The notes under the pieces are model-generated. The model searched no databases. It was not told the origin of the DNA and saw nothing but the letters and a program-made list of their open reading frames with translations. This document shows, piece after piece, positions 331 to 8,243 of a stretch of 24,789 bases of DNA (its first letter is position 1; every line of letters starts with the position of its first letter). The stretch is from a virus, in the IMG/VR virus record IMGVR_UViG_3300027801_000155, positions 1-24,789 of that record. One strand, written 5' to 3'. A program made the position numbers and the translations under genes.

Positions 331-642
331 ATGAAAAATGACTATGAGAATGTAAGGAGCTCAAGAAATGAACTTGAGGCTATCTTAAGAATAAGAGGAA
401 TTTCCAAACAAAGATTTGGAAGAATATTAAATATTAAAGGATCAACTATTGAGAAGTATTTAGACAATCCATACTTCCTTAGATATTACCAAATGCAAAG
501 AATAGCTAAATTTCTAAATGTAGGTGTTAAGGATATTATAGATATTATAGAGATTGATTTAAAATCTGAGATGATTATAGTGGAGGGAGAGCAGGGATTC
601 TCAGGTGTTGATTCTATAACTAAGACAATAAGTAATGAATAG
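331..642 (+). CDS. Small XRE-like helix-turn-helix DNA-binding protein
   Basis: A 103-residue protein whose residues ~15-70 fit the Cro/C1 (XRE) pattern: a first helix (ELEAILRIRGIS), a second helix with the KQRFGRIL turn region, a recognition-helix-like segment (STIEKYLDN) and two closing helices (QMQRIAKFLNVGVKDII). The last ~30 residues are acidic and polar. In phages such proteins are usually repressors, Cro-like regulators or small accessory DNA binders; which one cannot be read from the sequence. It is translationally coupled to the next gene, whose ATG at 635 lies 8 bases inside this one. Palindromes at 1334-1354 and 6199-6215 are possible operators for it, but no direct link is visible. 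Confidence 0.7.
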   Translation: MKNDYENVRSSRNELEAILRIRGISKQRFGRILNIKGSTIEKYLDNPYFLRYYQMQRIAKFLNVGVKDIIDIIEIDLKSEMIIVEGEQGFSGVDSITKTISNE

Positions 643-1096
643 ATATAAGCTAGAACTAACTGAAGAAAGACACCATACAATTAAATCTGAAATATCATCA
701 AGGTATAATTTAGGGTGGAGTGCTATAGAGTCAAGAAGTAGAAAAAGAGCTATTATAGATGCTAGAAGGCTTTATTGCGGTGTATTAAGAAATGTTTTTG
801 GATTAACCTTTCACCAAATAGGAGAAATGCTTAATAAAAACCACGCAACAATAGTTCATAGTATGAAAATTCACGATAACTTTGTAAAGATTTTAAAATC
901 ATATAAAAAGAATTATGAAGAAATAGAATCTATGTTTTACTTAAGTGAAAATTATTATGAACACGAAGTCCTTTCAGTTGAAAGAAAAATGGATAGCCTA
1001 GCCAAAAGGCTTAGCGGTTTAATAGAAAAGAAAAACGAATATAAATTAAAAATTAAAAAACAAAATCATGGCAGACAAGAATTATGTAGTAAGTAG
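635..1096 (+). CDS. DnaA domain IV-like DNA-binding protein without an ATPase domain
   Basis: A 153-residue protein. Residues ~34-80 match the C-terminal DNA-binding domain of DnaA: a helix with the Arg/Ala pattern (RKRAIIDARRLYCGVL), a hydrophobic turn (FGLTFHQIGEML) and the signature NHATIVHSMK, corresponding to the DHTTVxHA motif that contacts the DnaA box. No Walker A or B is present, so this is only the box-binding module. Residues ~95-153 are Lys/Glu-rich and likely coiled coil. It overlaps the preceding gene by 8 bases and the following SSB-like gene by 29. Stand-alone DnaA-IV proteins occur in Bacteroidetes phages; an inferred role is recognition of a phage or host origin. The alternative is a transcription regulator. 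Confidence 0.72.
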   Translation: MNRYKLELTEERHHTIKSEISSRYNLGWSAIESRSRKRAIIDARRLYCGVLRNVFGLTFHQIGEMLNKNHATIVHSMKIHDNFVKILKSYKKNYEEIESMFYLSENYYEHEVLSVERKMDSLAKRLSGLIEKKNEYKLKIKKQNHGRQELCSK

Positions 1097-1333: not shown

Positions 1334-1354
1334 ACTACCAAATTATTTGGTAGT
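1334..1354. promoter_or_regulatory. Perfect 9-bp inverted repeat overlapping the -33 element of promoter P1
   Basis: ACTACCAAA (1334-1342) and TTTGGTAGT (1346-1354) are perfect inverted repeats separated by TTA. The right arm contains the TTTG used as the -33 box of the promoter. This is the expected layout of an operator for a dimeric repressor. It could instead be a terminator-like hairpin for the upstream operon, but no T-run follows it. Confidence 0.6.
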
Positions 1355-1377
1355 GTCAGATATTATTCGTATCTTTG
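1346..1377 (+). promoter_or_regulatory. Bacteroidetes-type promoter P1 (TTTG-N20-TATCTTTG)
   Basis: TTTG at 1346-1349 and TATCTTTG at 1370-1377 (matching TAnnTTTG) are separated by 20 bases, the layout recognised by the Bacteroidetes primary sigma factor. Transcription would begin around 1383-1386, directly at the base of the RNA structure at 1385-1455, and read into the peptidase gene at 1496. Confidence 0.75.
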
Positions 1378-1384
1378 TATAGAA

Positions 1385-1455
1385 TTTAAGGGGGAGTAGA
1401 GCCAATAGACGACCTAAGCGATTTATCGCATAAATGATGAGGCTCTCCCCTTAAA
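1385..1455 (+). ncRNA. Structured RNA leader upstream of the peptidase gene
   Basis: A closing stem pairs 1385-1393 (TTTAAGGGG) with 1447-1455 (CCCCTTAAA). After an asymmetric bulge (1394-1398 opposite 1446) a second helix pairs GAGCC at 1399-1403 with GGCTC at 1441-1445. The large loop contains a GCGA-TTTA-TCGC hairpin (1418-1429). The structure begins at about the predicted transcription start and lies ~40 bases before the peptidase ATG. It lacks a T-arm and anticodon layout, so it is not a tRNA, and no T-run follows, so it is not a standard terminator. It may be a stabilising 5' leader, a regulatory leader or a small RNA. I recognise no known class. Confidence 0.55.
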
Positions 1456-1495
1456 CTCTAACTAACTAACTATTAACTAAAACAAGAAAACACTT

Positions 1496-2692
1496 ATGAA
1501 TAAACAATTATTACAAAGAAAAAGATTACTGATGGATGTCTTGTCAATTCAAACCACAAGTGGTAATGAATTTGATATGATAGCATACATACATAAATTT
1601 TGCAGAGAGAATGTCCCTCAAGCAAAAGTAGAAATAAAGGATAGCAACATATATGTGACTAAGGGACATGCAGATACATACCCCTGCATAGTTGCACACA
1701 CAGATACAGTTCACGAAATACATAAATACTATAAGGTTTTTGATGATGATAATTGCTTATTTGCATTTAACTCAGAATCAGGTAAACAAGTGGGTGTAGG
1801 TGGAGATGATAAGGTGGGTATATGGTTGGCACTAGAAATGCTAATGAATACAAATTCTATAAAATGCGCCTTCTTTCATTCAGAGGAAATTGGATGCGTT
1901 GGAAGTATGGCTGCAGATATGGAATGGTTTAAGGATGTAGGGTATTGCCTACAAGGAGATAGACGAGGTTCTACGGATTTTGTAAATAATATATCAGGCA
2001 AACTATTCAGTAAAGCATTTAGCAAAACTATAGCACCGATATTAAAACATCATGGATATAAAGAAACTTCAGGAGCAATTACTGATGTAGGTCAATTAGC
2101 AGAGAATGGCATAGGTGTATGTGTAGCTAATATGAGTTGTGGATATTACGATCCCCATTCTGATACTGAAATTGTAGAGTTCTATGACGCTAATAATTGT
2201 TTAGATATGATAGAGAATATCGTAAATGAATTAGGTTGTAATAAATATGAGTATCAATTTACAACATCATACGGATATGGATATGGAACGAGTAAATGGG
2301 GGGACTTCTCAGGAGCAAGTAGAGGTTATTGGTATGGAAATAATGGTCAATCAAGTAGAGATAAAGAAGTGATCTATGATGACCAAACAGGAATAGAGAG
2401 TTGCTACTATTGTCATTGTGAGGAATTAATGGATAGTGAGTTTACGGATGAAACTATGGAATGCAGATATTGTCCTGATTGCTGCTCGGACATTCTTGTG
2501 GAAATGAAAGATGTTCCTAACTCCAATCAAATAGAAATGGCGCTTGATGAGAATGAAGAAGATATGAACTCTTGGAATAAATCATTTGGAGTTAAAGAGA
2601 TTGATTACGAGGATGTATCAGATAACTATGATGGCTCAATGAAGCATAAGTCAATAGTAAACGAATACTTAACTAACTATCAAAATAAATAA
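1496..2692 (+). CDS. M20/M28-like zinc metallopeptidase with a C-terminal zinc ribbon
   Basis: A 398-residue protein with the metal ligands and catalytic residues of di-zinc (clan MH) peptidases in order: H68 and D70 in VAHTDTVHE, D104/D105 in GVGGDDKVGIW, the catalytic/ligand pair E130-E131 in FFHSEEIG, D155 in QGDRRGSTDF and H221 in DPHSDTE. Only ~65 residues separate D155 from H221, so the dimerisation insert of typical M20 enzymes appears to be missing. A Gly/Tyr-rich linker (~258-282) leads to a cysteine cluster (C303, C306, C308, C323, C326, C329, C330) resembling a zinc ribbon, then an acidic tail. No signal peptide, so it probably acts in the cytoplasm. It has its own promoter, palindrome and structured leader. 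Substrate unknown; host peptide processing or disabling a host factor are inferences. Confidence 0.82.
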   Translation: MNKQLLQRKRLLMDVLSIQTTSGNEFDMIAYIHKFCRENVPQAKVEIKDSNIYVTKGHADTYPCIVAHTDTVHEIHKYYKVFDDDNCLFAFNSESGKQVGVGGDDKVGIWLALEMLMNTNSIKCAFFHSEEIGCVGSMAADMEWFKDVGYCLQGDRRGSTDFVNNISGKLFSKAFSKTIAPILKHHGYKETSGAITDVGQLAENGIGVCVANMSCGYYDPHSDTEIVEFYDANNCLDMIENIVNELGCNKYEYQFTTSYGYGYGTSKWGDFSGASRGYWYGNNGQSSRDKEVIYDDQTGIESCYYCHCEELMDSEFTDETMECRYCPDCCSDILVEMKDVPNSNQIEMALDENEEDMNSWNKSFGVKEIDYEDVSDNYDGSMKHKSIVNEYLTNYQNK

Positions 2693-2694
2693 TT

Positions 2695-3336
2695 ATGGCA
2701 AAGAGATTGACCGATTCAGACAAATGGAAGAAGGGTTTCATAAGAGGACTAGCTCCTAAGTATAAACTATTTTGGCTCTACATATTAGATGACTGCACTC
2801 ATGCAGGGATATGGGAAACTGATTTTGAAGTAGCATCAATTAGAATTGGAAGCAAGGTAACGGAAGCTGAAGCAGTTAGAGTTATGGCTAGTCATATAGT
2901 AATATTTGATGGAGGCAACAAATGGTTCATTCCTAGCTTCATTGACTTTCAGTATGTTTCTCTTAATGAGAACTCAAGAGTTCACCAATCAGTTATAAAA
3001 GCACTAGATAAATATGATGTGTATAATATAAAAGGCATTAGCCCTAATGATATAGATGGAGTGTCTTTATTAGATAAGGATGGTATAGTCATCAAGAAGC
3101 CTATTATAAAGCGTTTTAAGCAACCTACGGTACAGGATGTACATGAGTATTGCAATGAGAGGAAAAACAAGGTCTGTGCTGATACATTTATAGATTTTTA
3201 TGAAAGCAAAGGTTGGATGGTAGGAAAAGTAAAAATGAAAGACTGGAGAGCTTGTGTTAGGACTTGGGAGAAAAATACAGTTAAAGATAAGACAGGCAGA
3301 AAAGAATTATCAGGGAAAGATTATACAACATTTTAA
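2695..3336 (+). CDS. DnaD-like replisome organiser / replication initiation protein
   Basis: A 213-residue protein. The N-terminal ~110 residues (SDKWKKGFIRGLAPKYKLFWLYILDDC, then the IWETDFEVAS region) resemble the winged-helix N-domain of phage replication proteins of the Lin1244/DnaD type. The C-terminal ~50 residues (PTVQDVHEYC, then FIDFYESKGW and MKDWRACVRTWEKN) carry the motif that often ends such Bacteroidetes phage and prophage proteins. These proteins bind the origin and help the loader place the replicative helicase. It begins 2 bases after the peptidase stop and is followed 1 base later by the DnaC-like loader, the typical initiator-loader gene pair. Confidence 0.72.
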   Translation: MAKRLTDSDKWKKGFIRGLAPKYKLFWLYILDDCTHAGIWETDFEVASIRIGSKVTEAEAVRVMASHIVIFDGGNKWFIPSFIDFQYVSLNENSRVHQSVIKALDKYDVYNIKGISPNDIDGVSLLDKDGIVIKKPIIKRFKQPTVQDVHEYCNERKNKVCADTFIDFYESKGWMVGKVKMKDWRACVRTWEKNTVKDKTGRKELSGKDYTTF

Positions 3337-3337
3337 T

Positions 3338-3916
3338 ATGAGAACATTAGAAGAAACATTAAAGAACGCTACTCATATAAAGGTAAGAGATTATCAGAGG
3401 TATAGCTTTGGAACTTATGATGAGTGCTTATCTTTATTTAAAGAAGCATTTATGCTAGTAGATAAAACAGTTAAAGGATATAAACACTTACCTGAATACG
3501 ATACGATTATACATTGGCTATCTGACACTCAAGGTAAGGGCTTGTTTCTGATAGGAAGCTGTGGTAGAGGTAAGTCAATTATTATAACAGGAGTATTGCC
3601 TTTAATTTTTAACGCTAAGAAAGGAAAGATACTTAAGCCTATCCCTGCTCGTAAGCTTCATCAGGTTACTGAGTACGCTAGTCCATTCATTGTTATAGAT
3701 GACATAGGAACTGAAGAAATAGTTAATAACTATGGAACAAAGATAGATGCAGTAGAAAACGCTATATTTGAAGCTGAAGATGATCTGAAGCTATTACTAC
3801 TAACATCTAATTTAGATGCGGCAGCCATCAAGCAGAGGTACGGAGAGAGGATATACGATAGAATAAAAAGATTATGCTTAGTAGTGTTCATAAAAGGAGA
3901 AAGTTTAAGGAAATAA
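3338..3916 (+). CDS. dnaC: DnaC-like AAA+ ATPase, replicative helicase loader
   Basis: With the start at the ATG at 3338 the product has 192 residues; the frame stays open upstream to 3254 but that would overlap the preceding gene. Visible motifs are Walker A GSCGRGKS (73-80), Walker B FIVIDD (117-122), sensor 1 LLLTSN (153-158) and a DnaC/IstB-type arginine motif RYGERIYDRI (167-176). These define the helicase-loader branch of AAA+ ATPases, which load the DnaB ring onto origin DNA. The usual N-terminal helicase-binding domain appears short. With the DnaD-like gene upstream and no helicase gene in view, recruitment of host DnaB is the simplest reading. Confidence 0.85.
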   Translation: MRTLEETLKNATHIKVRDYQRYSFGTYDECLSLFKEAFMLVDKTVKGYKHLPEYDTIIHWLSDTQGKGLFLIGSCGRGKSIIITGVLPLIFNAKKGKILKPIPARKLHQVTEYASPFIVIDDIGTEEIVNNYGTKIDAVENAIFEAEDDLKLLLLTSNLDAAAIKQRYGERIYDRIKRLCLVVFIKGESLRK

Positions 3917-4999: not shown

Positions 5000-5236
5000 A
5001 TGGTAGTTATATTATTTGTTGCTCTTAGTTTTTATTGCATCTATCTTAACTTAAGAGTAAGGGAAATTCAAGAGGAATTGACCGAGCTGAATATTGATAT
5101 AGACACACTAGAGATTAAAGTTTACAACAAGATGATGGATGTGCGTACAGAAATCAAAGGATTAATTAAATCAAAGACAGTTGAGAAATCAAGAAGAAGA
5201 AGTACAAAAAGGAGTCGTAAATTACCTGAAGCTTAA
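5000..5236 (+). CDS. Small membrane-anchored coiled-coil protein (78 aa)
   Basis: Residues ~2-17 (VVILFVALSFYCIYLN) form a membrane segment, followed by a heptad-like coiled coil (REIQEELTELNIDIDTLEIKV) and a very basic C-terminus (KSRRRSTKRSRK). The layout resembles small phage membrane proteins such as spanin subunits or host-takeover peptides, but there is no outer-membrane partner nearby, so I do not call it a spanin. Its last 56 bases also encode the start of the nuclease gene in another frame, which may explain the unusual Arg/Ser-rich tail. Confidence 0.55.
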   Translation: MVVILFVALSFYCIYLNLRVREIQEELTELNIDIDTLEIKVYNKMMDVRTEIKGLIKSKTVEKSRRRSTKRSRKLPEA

Positions 5237-5573
5237 GTACCCTAAAGCTTGGTACTGTGCTAGTTTAGGAGGTATAAGAACTTCCTTTAAGCAAGCTGTC
5301 AAGGCTAAGGCTACAGGATATGTAAAGGGATTCCCTGATCTACAAATTTGTGTCCCTATGGAGAGGGGGATAGATGGGGAGGGGGGTACTAGGAGGGGGG
5401 GGGTATATCATGGATTGTTCCTTGAAATAAAAAAGGATAAGAAATCCTACCCAACCAAAGAGCAGAAAGAATGGATAGCATACTTAAACGAACAGGGGTA
5501 TTGTGCCAGGGTTACTAAAGGCATTGATGAGAGTATGCAAACAATAGATGATTACTTTAATAAAAAGATATGA
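5181..5573 (+). CDS. VRR-NUC family nuclease (PD-(D/E)xK fold)
   Basis: A 130-residue protein with the VRR-NUC core: E7 in the N-terminal helix (EEEVQKGVVNYL), a Gly-rich turn (SLGGIRT), GYVKGFPDLQI with catalytic D53, the LEIKK strand with E82 and K84, and Q95 in the following helix. These nucleases act as structure-specific or nicking DNases, and phage versions usually lie in replication operons. The start is TTG at 5181; the frame has a stop at 5163-5165 and no ATG between, so this non-ATG start inside the preceding gene seems required. Residues ~60-76 are a Gly/Arg-rich insert encoded by an extremely G-rich tract, replacing the short loop normally found between the Asp and the ExK strand. 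Confidence 0.82.
   Translation: MRNQEEEVQKGVVNYLKLKYPKAWYCASLGGIRTSFKQAVKAKATGYVKGFPDLQICVPMERGIDGEGGTRRGGVYHGLFLEIKKDKKSYPTKEQKEWIAYLNEQGYCARVTKGIDESMQTIDDYFNKKI
5365..5403 (+). other. G-rich tract with four G-runs (G-quadruplex-type pattern) inside the nuclease gene
   Basis: Runs of 5 (5365-5369), 4 (5376-5379), 6 (5381-5386) and 9 (5395-5403) consecutive G residues are separated by loops of 6, 1 and 8 bases. This satisfies a four-layer G-quadruplex pattern on the + strand, including the mRNA. The surrounding genome is AT-rich, so the tract stands out sharply. Confidence 0.6.
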
Positions 5574-6998: not shown

Positions 6999-8243
6999 AT
7001 GAAAACAAAAACACTCAACAAATTATTAAAGGATTACCAATTAATTTTTGCAAATTTAGGCTTTAAAATTAATAAGGACTTTAAAAAAGATTATTTACAT
7101 ATAAAAAGAATGGCAACAAACGGCACAAAAATAAGTTATATAAAAGCCGATAAAATAAAAGGACTAAAAGAAAATATAAAGGGTTTTAAGTTAAAGCCGA
7201 ATGATCCAGAGCAAAGAAACAAATACTTTACAGCCGTTAAGCCTAGCAAATTTTTAGATTCTATGATAATAGCACCAACAAACAGGACAACACTTTTTAA
7301 TAGTTTATCGGAACAATTCACAAAGGACTTTATAAGTAATTTAAAAAGTAAATTAGTTTTGTTTAGCGGTTCAGATATTTGCGAACAATACAATATAAAT
7401 AGTAGTATTGTTGGGTGTATGTCAGGAAGTTCTGAAAATTGGTTCAGGGTGTACGCAAGGACTGAGGGGCTACAATTAGCAACCATACAAGATACGGAAG
7501 GTTCTATATTAATGCGTTCACTACTTTGGCACGATAAAGAAACAAATAATTATTGGCTAGATAATTCATACGAACAATCGGCAATAAATGGAGATAATGA
7601 AATACGGCAGGATTATCAAAAGAAGTTAATTGCTGAAGTATTAAAGCACTTAATGGATAAGCAAAGGGAAACATATAAAACATTAGAAACGCCTCAGTTT
7701 GGTTTTGGTTGTGCTTTTGCTGATAGATTAGATAATACACAAGTAAAAGAGATACAAGAAAAATTTAATGTAGAAATATTTAGAGATGTTAAGCGTAAGG
7801 TAATAACTGAAACGCTTACCGATTTAGAAGGCAAAGAAACGGAAAGAGAAACGGAAAGAAGTAAAGAATGTATTTTATTGAAGCCAATAATAAAGGATTT
7901 TGATGCTGATGATTTTGAGAGTTTCCCATATAGCGACACCTTCCAAAGCATTGGAAGAAATTCGGGCAGATGGTTTATAGATTCTAATTCAGGAGATGAT
8001 AGTTTTATTTGTTGTAGAAGTACGGAGGGACAAGATGAGAACGATAGCGGATCAATGTGTGATTGTTGTGAGGAGAGAACCCACGAAGATGAAATACACT
8101 ACTCAGAAGTAGAGCAGGAGTATCTGTGTGATGAGTGCGGTGTATGGATAGAGGAACGAGATGATACAGCAAGGATAGGGAATACAACCTACAACAATCA
8201 TACAGGAGAAAGCCACTACTCTCACGACTTAAGCCAACAGTAA
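6999..8243 (+). CDS. Large protein of unknown function with a C-terminal zinc ribbon (414 aa)
   Basis: Residues 1-110 are Lys-rich and helical. Residues ~118-180 hold a more conserved-looking core (LFSGSDICEQYN, IVGCMSG, FRVYARTEGLQLAT, then ILMRSLLWHD), reminiscent of an uncharacterised phage family in which a Ser-Cys-Met segment precedes an RALLW-like strand. I recall this pattern but cannot confirm it. Residues ~270-290 are Glu/Arg/Thr-rich. The C-terminal ~60 residues hold a zinc-ribbon-like cluster C354-x-C356-C357 and C377-x2-C380 in an acidic context, resembling the tail of the peptidase at 1496-2692. It is the last and largest gene of block 2. No enzymatic motif visible; function unknown. 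Confidence 0.7.
   Translation: MKTKTLNKLLKDYQLIFANLGFKINKDFKKDYLHIKRMATNGTKISYIKADKIKGLKENIKGFKLKPNDPEQRNKYFTAVKPSKFLDSMIIAPTNRTTLFNSLSEQFTKDFISNLKSKLVLFSGSDICEQYNINSSIVGCMSGSSENWFRVYARTEGLQLATIQDTEGSILMRSLLWHDKETNNYWLDNSYEQSAINGDNEIRQDYQKKLIAEVLKHLMDKQRETYKTLETPQFGFGCAFADRLDNTQVKEIQEKFNVEIFRDVKRKVITETLTDLEGKETERETERSKECILLKPIIKDFDADDFESFPYSDTFQSIGRNSGRWFIDSNSGDDSFICCRSTEGQDENDSGSMCDCCEERTHEDEIHYSEVEQEYLCDECGVWIEERDDTARIGNTTYNNHTGESHYSHDLSQQ

Follow-up and report, generated by a model that had tools for sequence, protein, structure and literature searches.

A conserved partner gene and an in-frame UGA codon in relatives accompany a lid-less phage di-zinc peptidase

The peptidase locus

The window (i.e. 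the whole stretch of viral DNA analysed, 24,789 nt in length) carries at 1496..2692 (+ strand, as for all window features given below) an ATG-initiated open reading frame of 398 aa, which we describe, based on its PHROG 4191 match, invariant residues and Foldseek comparisons, as a putative lid-less di-zinc peptidase with a zinc-ribbon tail. The gene is preceded by a predicted promoter of the Bacteroidota type (TTTG-N20-TATCTTTG, 1346..1377, a consensus match), in an arrangement that recurs in 30 of the 32 relatives examined. Between this promoter and the start codon lies a hairpin leader (1380..1460; arms 1380-1393 and 1447-1460), whose inverted repeat is 93% complementary (predicted fold -28.0 kcal/mol) and which is present in the related contig L001 too. 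The neighbouring genes encode a protein resembling the C-terminal domain of DnaA (635..1096; Pfam PF08299, 9.8e-12), a DnaC-like helicase loader (3254..3916; PHROG 3277, 4.2e-20) and a VRR-NUC / Holliday-junction-resolvase-like nuclease (5181..5573; PHROG 824, 8.1e-24; PHROG 5702, 3.7e-11; Pfam VRR_NUC, 2.6e-4). They bear out the replication-gene surroundings proposed in an earlier sequence-only reading of this DNA, and would agree with an early expression of the peptidase. Further along the same strand (6999..8243) lies the gene of a 414-aa protein (hereafter the partner or CM protein), with a probable GNAT-fold core and a C-terminal zinc ribbon, as judged from a cross-phage profile, alignment, the order of predicted structural elements and Foldseek.

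Small hairpins, of at least six kinds, were observed in various intergenic regions as well as between or near the promoter and the start of the peptidase. Upstream of the peptidase they occur in the window (1380-1460) and in L001, L002, L003, L005, L036, L041, L052 and L054 (also at L032:9740); their interiors are common across phages, and their end stems vary yet stay complementary (e.g. GAGAGG/CCTCTC, GGGAGG/CCTCCC, AAGTGG/CCACTT). One of these kinds is present in 10 IMG/VR contigs, and a search of Rfam gave no match for these elements.

Catalytic site, fold and nearest families

The product of 1496..2692 matched the PHROG 4191 'peptidase' profile over residues 9-243 (1.2e-55), as well as three clan-MH families in Pfam, each below its gathering score (M42: 20.4 bits vs. 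23.2; M20: 15.7 bits vs. 24.6; M28: 14.5 bits vs. 21.3); the M42 gathering score was reached by its relative in phage Jenst (54.0 bits). The full set of metal ligands (H68, D104, E131, D155 and H221) and catalytic residues (D70 and E130) is intact in the window peptidase, and all seven remain unchanged when 17 proteins from phages or elements are aligned with four cellular M20 proteins (the latter being relatives found in genome contigs); D105, beside D104, is replaced by C or N in three aligned proteins. Thus, the positions that the sequence-only reading had singled out (H68, D70, D104, E131 and H221) are invariant and no aligned homologue lacks them, although the list was incomplete, lacking E130 as well as D155, a metal ligand.

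The AlphaFold model of the catalytic domain (residues 1-250, 1496..2245, delimited also by alignments) was mostly well predicted (pLDDT mostly >85), and its Foldseek matches included 1vho (M42), 3gb0 (PepT) and lid-deleted DapE domains, at E-values of about 1e-9 to 1e-8. The spatial convergence of the catalytic and metal residues was judged via this fold match and the alignment. By ligand set and fold, the protein is best classed as a putative di-zinc peptidase of clan MH, in agreement with what had been proposed from the sequence, and the features observed across 1496..2692 lie far above chance expectation.

Comparison with M20, M28 and M42 enzymes, as previously suggested, placed the protein near the first and the last of these families. 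M42 aminopeptidases (PDB 1vho, 2gre) gave its best Pfam and Foldseek scores and have the ligands in common with it, but the window peptidase has no counterpart of the insertion that M42 enzymes carry from the first His to the bridging Asp (36 residues separate the two). M28 aminopeptidases likewise have no lid between the last two ligands, yet they match more weakly in sequence and fall outside the 50 best fold matches. The closest curated family by sequence is PepT-like (TIGR01883: phi40:1 5e-8, Jenst 9e-27), with the phi40:1 peptidase scoring 32.4 bits against a cut-off of 274. M20 PepT-like enzymes (TIGR01883; PDB 3gb0) and DapE (PDB 4h2k, 4op4) share the catalytic fold and all catalytic and metal positions with the window peptidase, which in contrast to them lacks the lid, scores far under the cut-offs, shows a DRRG signature at the fourth ligand and possesses an additional ribbon tail.

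The spacing between D155 and H221 amounts to 66 residues in the window peptidase and to 62-71 across the phage family, as compared to 181 in the aligned cellular M20 relatives, and Pfam returned no match to the M20 dimerisation domain. Based on these distances, we consider that the ~115-residue lid (dimerisation domain) is really absent, as the sequence-only reading had recognised; its figure of ~65 residues between the fourth and fifth positions is right for D155-H221, and wrong for the pair that it actually listed (E131-H221, 90 residues). Since a DapE with its lid deleted was reported to be inactive (PMC4012986), it is not certain that the lid-less window peptidase is active. A natural and conserved lid-less M20-like enzyme bears on the necessity of the lid for catalysis.

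The catalytic domain is followed by a flexible linker rich in Gly, Tyr and Ser (residues 254-290, 2255..2365; pLDDT <50 over 254-288, predicted as disordered) and by a moderately confident zinc ribbon (C303-x2-C306 ... C326-x2-C329, 2402..2482; pLDDT ~80), so that both the Gly/Tyr linker and the cysteine cluster noted from the sequence proved real. All of the 50 close relatives keep the four ribbon cysteines, and a pair of CxxC knuckles is likewise present in Cellulophaga phi40:1 and in a single copy from megaphage LR756504; the ribbon is absent in 14 other representatives (phages of Vibrio, Klebsiella, Rhizobium, Pectobacterium, Brevibacillus and Thermus, and Bacteroidales elements included). 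As it is universal among the close relatives and missing from these distant representatives, the ribbon is a clade-specific addition, being fixed (as the sequence-only reading had suggested checking) within its own clade and not within the PHROG 4191 family.

The enzyme is not a lone oddity, contrary to its earlier portrayal as unusual: the PHROG 4191 peptidase family is already known in hundreds of phages, and lid-less peptidases have long been annotated in KP34-like and PhiM1-like phages. A 'putative peptidase' is listed for both (PMC4411677 and PMC6115819, respectively), the passages concerned giving no function beyond peptidase. Phage records with relatives numbered 106 when searching with the window's protein and 382 with the VP93 protein. 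The PHROG 4191 members KP34 p11, VP93 gp7, PhiM1_10 and Cellulophaga phi38:1/phi40:1 belong to the same family by profile and tblastn, and have the catalytic residues, the absence of a lid and a nearby partner gene in common with the window peptidase, but unlike it are mostly devoid of the zinc ribbon. New here are the conserved partner gene and an in-frame UGA at Trp110 in seven contigs.

A conserved partner gene

The main context missed by the sequence-only reading is the conserved partner gene, whose products are recognisable by the motifs G-S-C-M, RA-x-x-W, R-x-Y and P-Y-x-D, and in most cases by an acidic zinc-ribbon end. Look-alike genes adjoin the peptidase in phages of Cellulophaga, Vibrio, Klebsiella, Shigella, Rhizobium and Bradyrhizobium. 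A search with the window's own partner sequence gave no matches, and the cross-phage profile alone succeeded; this profile, built from ten proteins (the window's 6999..8243 product and the L013 copy included, both chosen by eye on the same motifs), found further members among the window's relatives. Aligned with 15 relatives, the window's CM protein diverges at one motif (LDNSY instead of LDRIY).

Within the window's group, the partner lies on the same strand as the peptidase in 21/21 loci (those with at least 5.6 kb downstream, several of them near-copies), at a median gap of 4.3 kb and a range of 1.8-5 kb, and is thus not adjacent, though part of the same operon-like array. In other PHROG 4191 phages, by contrast, it is adjacent: this arrangement was observed in Autographiviridae, Cellulophaga phages, a Bradyrhizobium phage, megaphages and Bacteroidales elements, and in most phages with unrelated genomes the two genes directly adjoin or overlap. 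Pseudomonas YMC11 (weak score) and Pectobacterium CB5 (weak score but clear motifs) likewise have the partner as the peptidase's neighbour, and in megaphage LR756503 the peptidase is found amid four partner copies. Furthermore, for each host genus the two genes occur in closely similar numbers of records. In Thermus P23-45 and Bacillus BcoS-136 the surroundings of the peptidase yielded no partner, and a neighbouring gene in a Brevibacillus phage gave a marginal structural match (Foldseek). Among the open-access papers found by our searches, mostly judged by title and abstract, none was seen to describe the pairing. Hundreds of sequenced phages (many of them phages of Klebsiella, Pectobacterium and Vibrio) carry a 'putative peptidase' without a known role. 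With a constant partner, what was an orphan annotation becomes a two-gene system, early in the genome, that can be put to the test.

Several genomes show peculiar arrangements of these genes. In Pectobacterium phage CB5 (L127:3245-4990) the partner seems to be divided between two ORFs (gp13, gp14) that lie upstream of the enzyme's gene, and in megaphages LR756504 (L026) and LR756503 (L130) the partner family occurs at 14-15 places per record, together with more than one peptidase copy. In three Bacteroidales contigs, from Marseilla, Prevotella and Tannerellaceae (L131, L132 and L133), the DNA of which is probably prophage or other mobile DNA, the partner lies directly upstream of the peptidase.

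The predicted order of strands and helices in the partner fits the GNAT fold, and about 48 of its 50 best Foldseek matches in the PDB are, by our reading, GNAT-fold proteins (best E 0.016, none individually significant). Pfam gave no match for the partner, and the acetyl-CoA pyrophosphate loop (R/Q-x-x-G-x-G/A) was not recognisable in its alignments. We argue from this predicted topology that the partner is probably GNAT-like.

Possible functions of the pair

We favour, at a probability of about one half, the reading in which an early, active exopeptidase constitutes one half of a two-protein module with the CM protein. The peptidase would act early and in the cytoplasm as a di-zinc exopeptidase of clan MH (M20/PepT-like branch) whose lid (dimerisation) domain was lost, and its clade would have gained a zinc ribbon, attached through a flexible linker, as a tail for docking; the substrate, a peptide or a protein, would be trimmed by the peptidase and bound, presented or modified by the CM protein (probably of the GNAT fold, with its own zinc ribbon). 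Such a module may serve in host takeover or in protein processing. In line with such a module are the invariance of the residues over great divergence, the fold match (E about 1e-9) and the pairing across phages; against it stand the inactivity of lid-deleted DapE, a GNAT call derived from predicted topology and non-significant Foldseek matches, the partner's absence from the vicinity of the Thermus P23-45 and Bacillus BcoS-136 enzymes, and its non-adjacent position in the window's group.

Alternatively, though rather improbably, the protein may be a stand-alone metabolic exopeptidase, with oligopeptides of degraded host protein feeding synthesis and the partner being linked via shared early expression. 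Such a role would suit both the closest family (i.e. the tripeptidase PepT) and the phages in which the enzyme occurs without a detected partner, but it leaves the persistence of the mostly adjacent or overlapping pairing across unrelated phage genomes, and the four partner copies around a megaphage peptidase, poorly accounted for.

Within the favoured two-protein module, a specific hypothesis is that the CM partner provides what the lid provides in M20 enzymes, a possibility raised by the inactivity of lid-deleted DapE (PMC4012986). In its fullest form, which we consider unlikely, this would amount to an undescribed two-protein enzyme, in which the active site or its specificity is completed in trans by the CM protein, and programmed UGA-to-Trp readthrough within the catalytic domain (see below) throttles synthesis of the peptidase in one sub-lineage.

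A role in counter-defence or host takeover, where peptidase and partner would jointly hit one host protein (e.g. a transcription or translation factor) and the ribbons would serve in docking, appears distinctly unlikely. To our knowledge, clan-MH enzymes are exopeptidases rather than endoproteases; moreover, PADLOC matched no defence-system model, and nothing found bears on the action on an immune factor that the sequence-only reading had contemplated. On the other hand, the peptidase lies in the early region ahead of the primase in Autographiviridae (PMC6115819), and Rac, a phage GNAT of phiKMV-like phages, triggers cleavage of the RNA polymerase alpha subunit (PMC7552054). Rac would resemble the probably GNAT-like CM protein as a GNAT-type phage protein tied to proteolysis in Autographiviridae, but it has a predicted acetyl-CoA pocket, is encoded elsewhere in the genome and acts without a phage peptidase (PMC7552054), the likeness so far being one of type.

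Very improbable, lastly, is a pseudo-enzyme in which the lid-less domain has lost catalysis and serves as a binding module. Removal of the lid does leave the M20 catalytic domain of DapE inactive (PMC4012986), but across the great divergence of the family not one metal ligand and neither catalytic residue varies, whereas pseudo-enzymes usually lose such residues.

An in-frame UGA codon in relatives of the peptidase

The codon of Trp110 (1823..1825) is TGG in the window and TGA in seven related IMG/VR contigs (L032, L045, L046, L047, L048, L051 and L069), each with a single TGA exactly at this position. The contigs bear seven dataset numbers, two of them sharing an identical peptidase sequence, and a motif scan of the whole collection found no TGA-bearing peptidases beyond these seven. 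Five of the six distinct sequences formed one supported clade in the tree and the sixth stood apart; all six were recovered as one group in 0/200 bootstrap trees, the branch of the sixth being long and its placement unsure. The dN/dS values around the codon are low (about 0.02-0.22 upstream and 0.05-0.20 downstream), and the part of the peptidase downstream of the TGA thus appears to be under purifying selection. The three codons past the TGA (ATA GCN, then Leu) show synonymous variation only, and position 110 is mostly Trp in relatives, otherwise Tyr, Phe, Val or Ala, and never Cys.

Three other accounts of this codon were considered. A genome-wide recoding of TGA to Trp was rejected, as in the 36.8 and 37.5 kb records the peptidase TGA is the sole sense-strand in-frame stop at a Trp position; in ORFs of at least 100 aa these records use TGG for 133 and 138 Trp codons, and TGA ends 2 and 4 ORFs, respectively. 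Comparison with other reference ORFs also showed in-frame stops, but none at a Trp position; these cases were taken for antisense or shadow ORFs. Selenocysteine insertion or structure-stimulated recoding was likewise rejected, given that no structure beyond that of shuffled sequences was found near the codon and that Cys never occupies position 110. Re-initiation at the next ATG is less likely, since the three codons following the TGA vary only synonymously.

Natural UGA readthrough mainly inserts Trp, and this is the residue present in the close relatives of the TGA contigs. Taken together, the purifying selection downstream of the codon, the continued use of UGA to end other genes and the absence of any tRNA detected by ARAGORN in the 36.8 and 37.5 kb records suggest that programmed UGA readthrough in the seven relatives is the simplest reading, and a probable one. 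If true, such an in-frame UGA, conserved in a single phage enzyme while the rest of the genome is not recoded, would represent an uncommon case of regulated readthrough. A further interruption of the reading frame was observed in Pseudomonas phage YMC11/06/C171_PPU_BP (L129:4968-5980), where a frameshift that may be a sequencing error, unrelated to the TGA, breaks the peptidase into two annotated genes.
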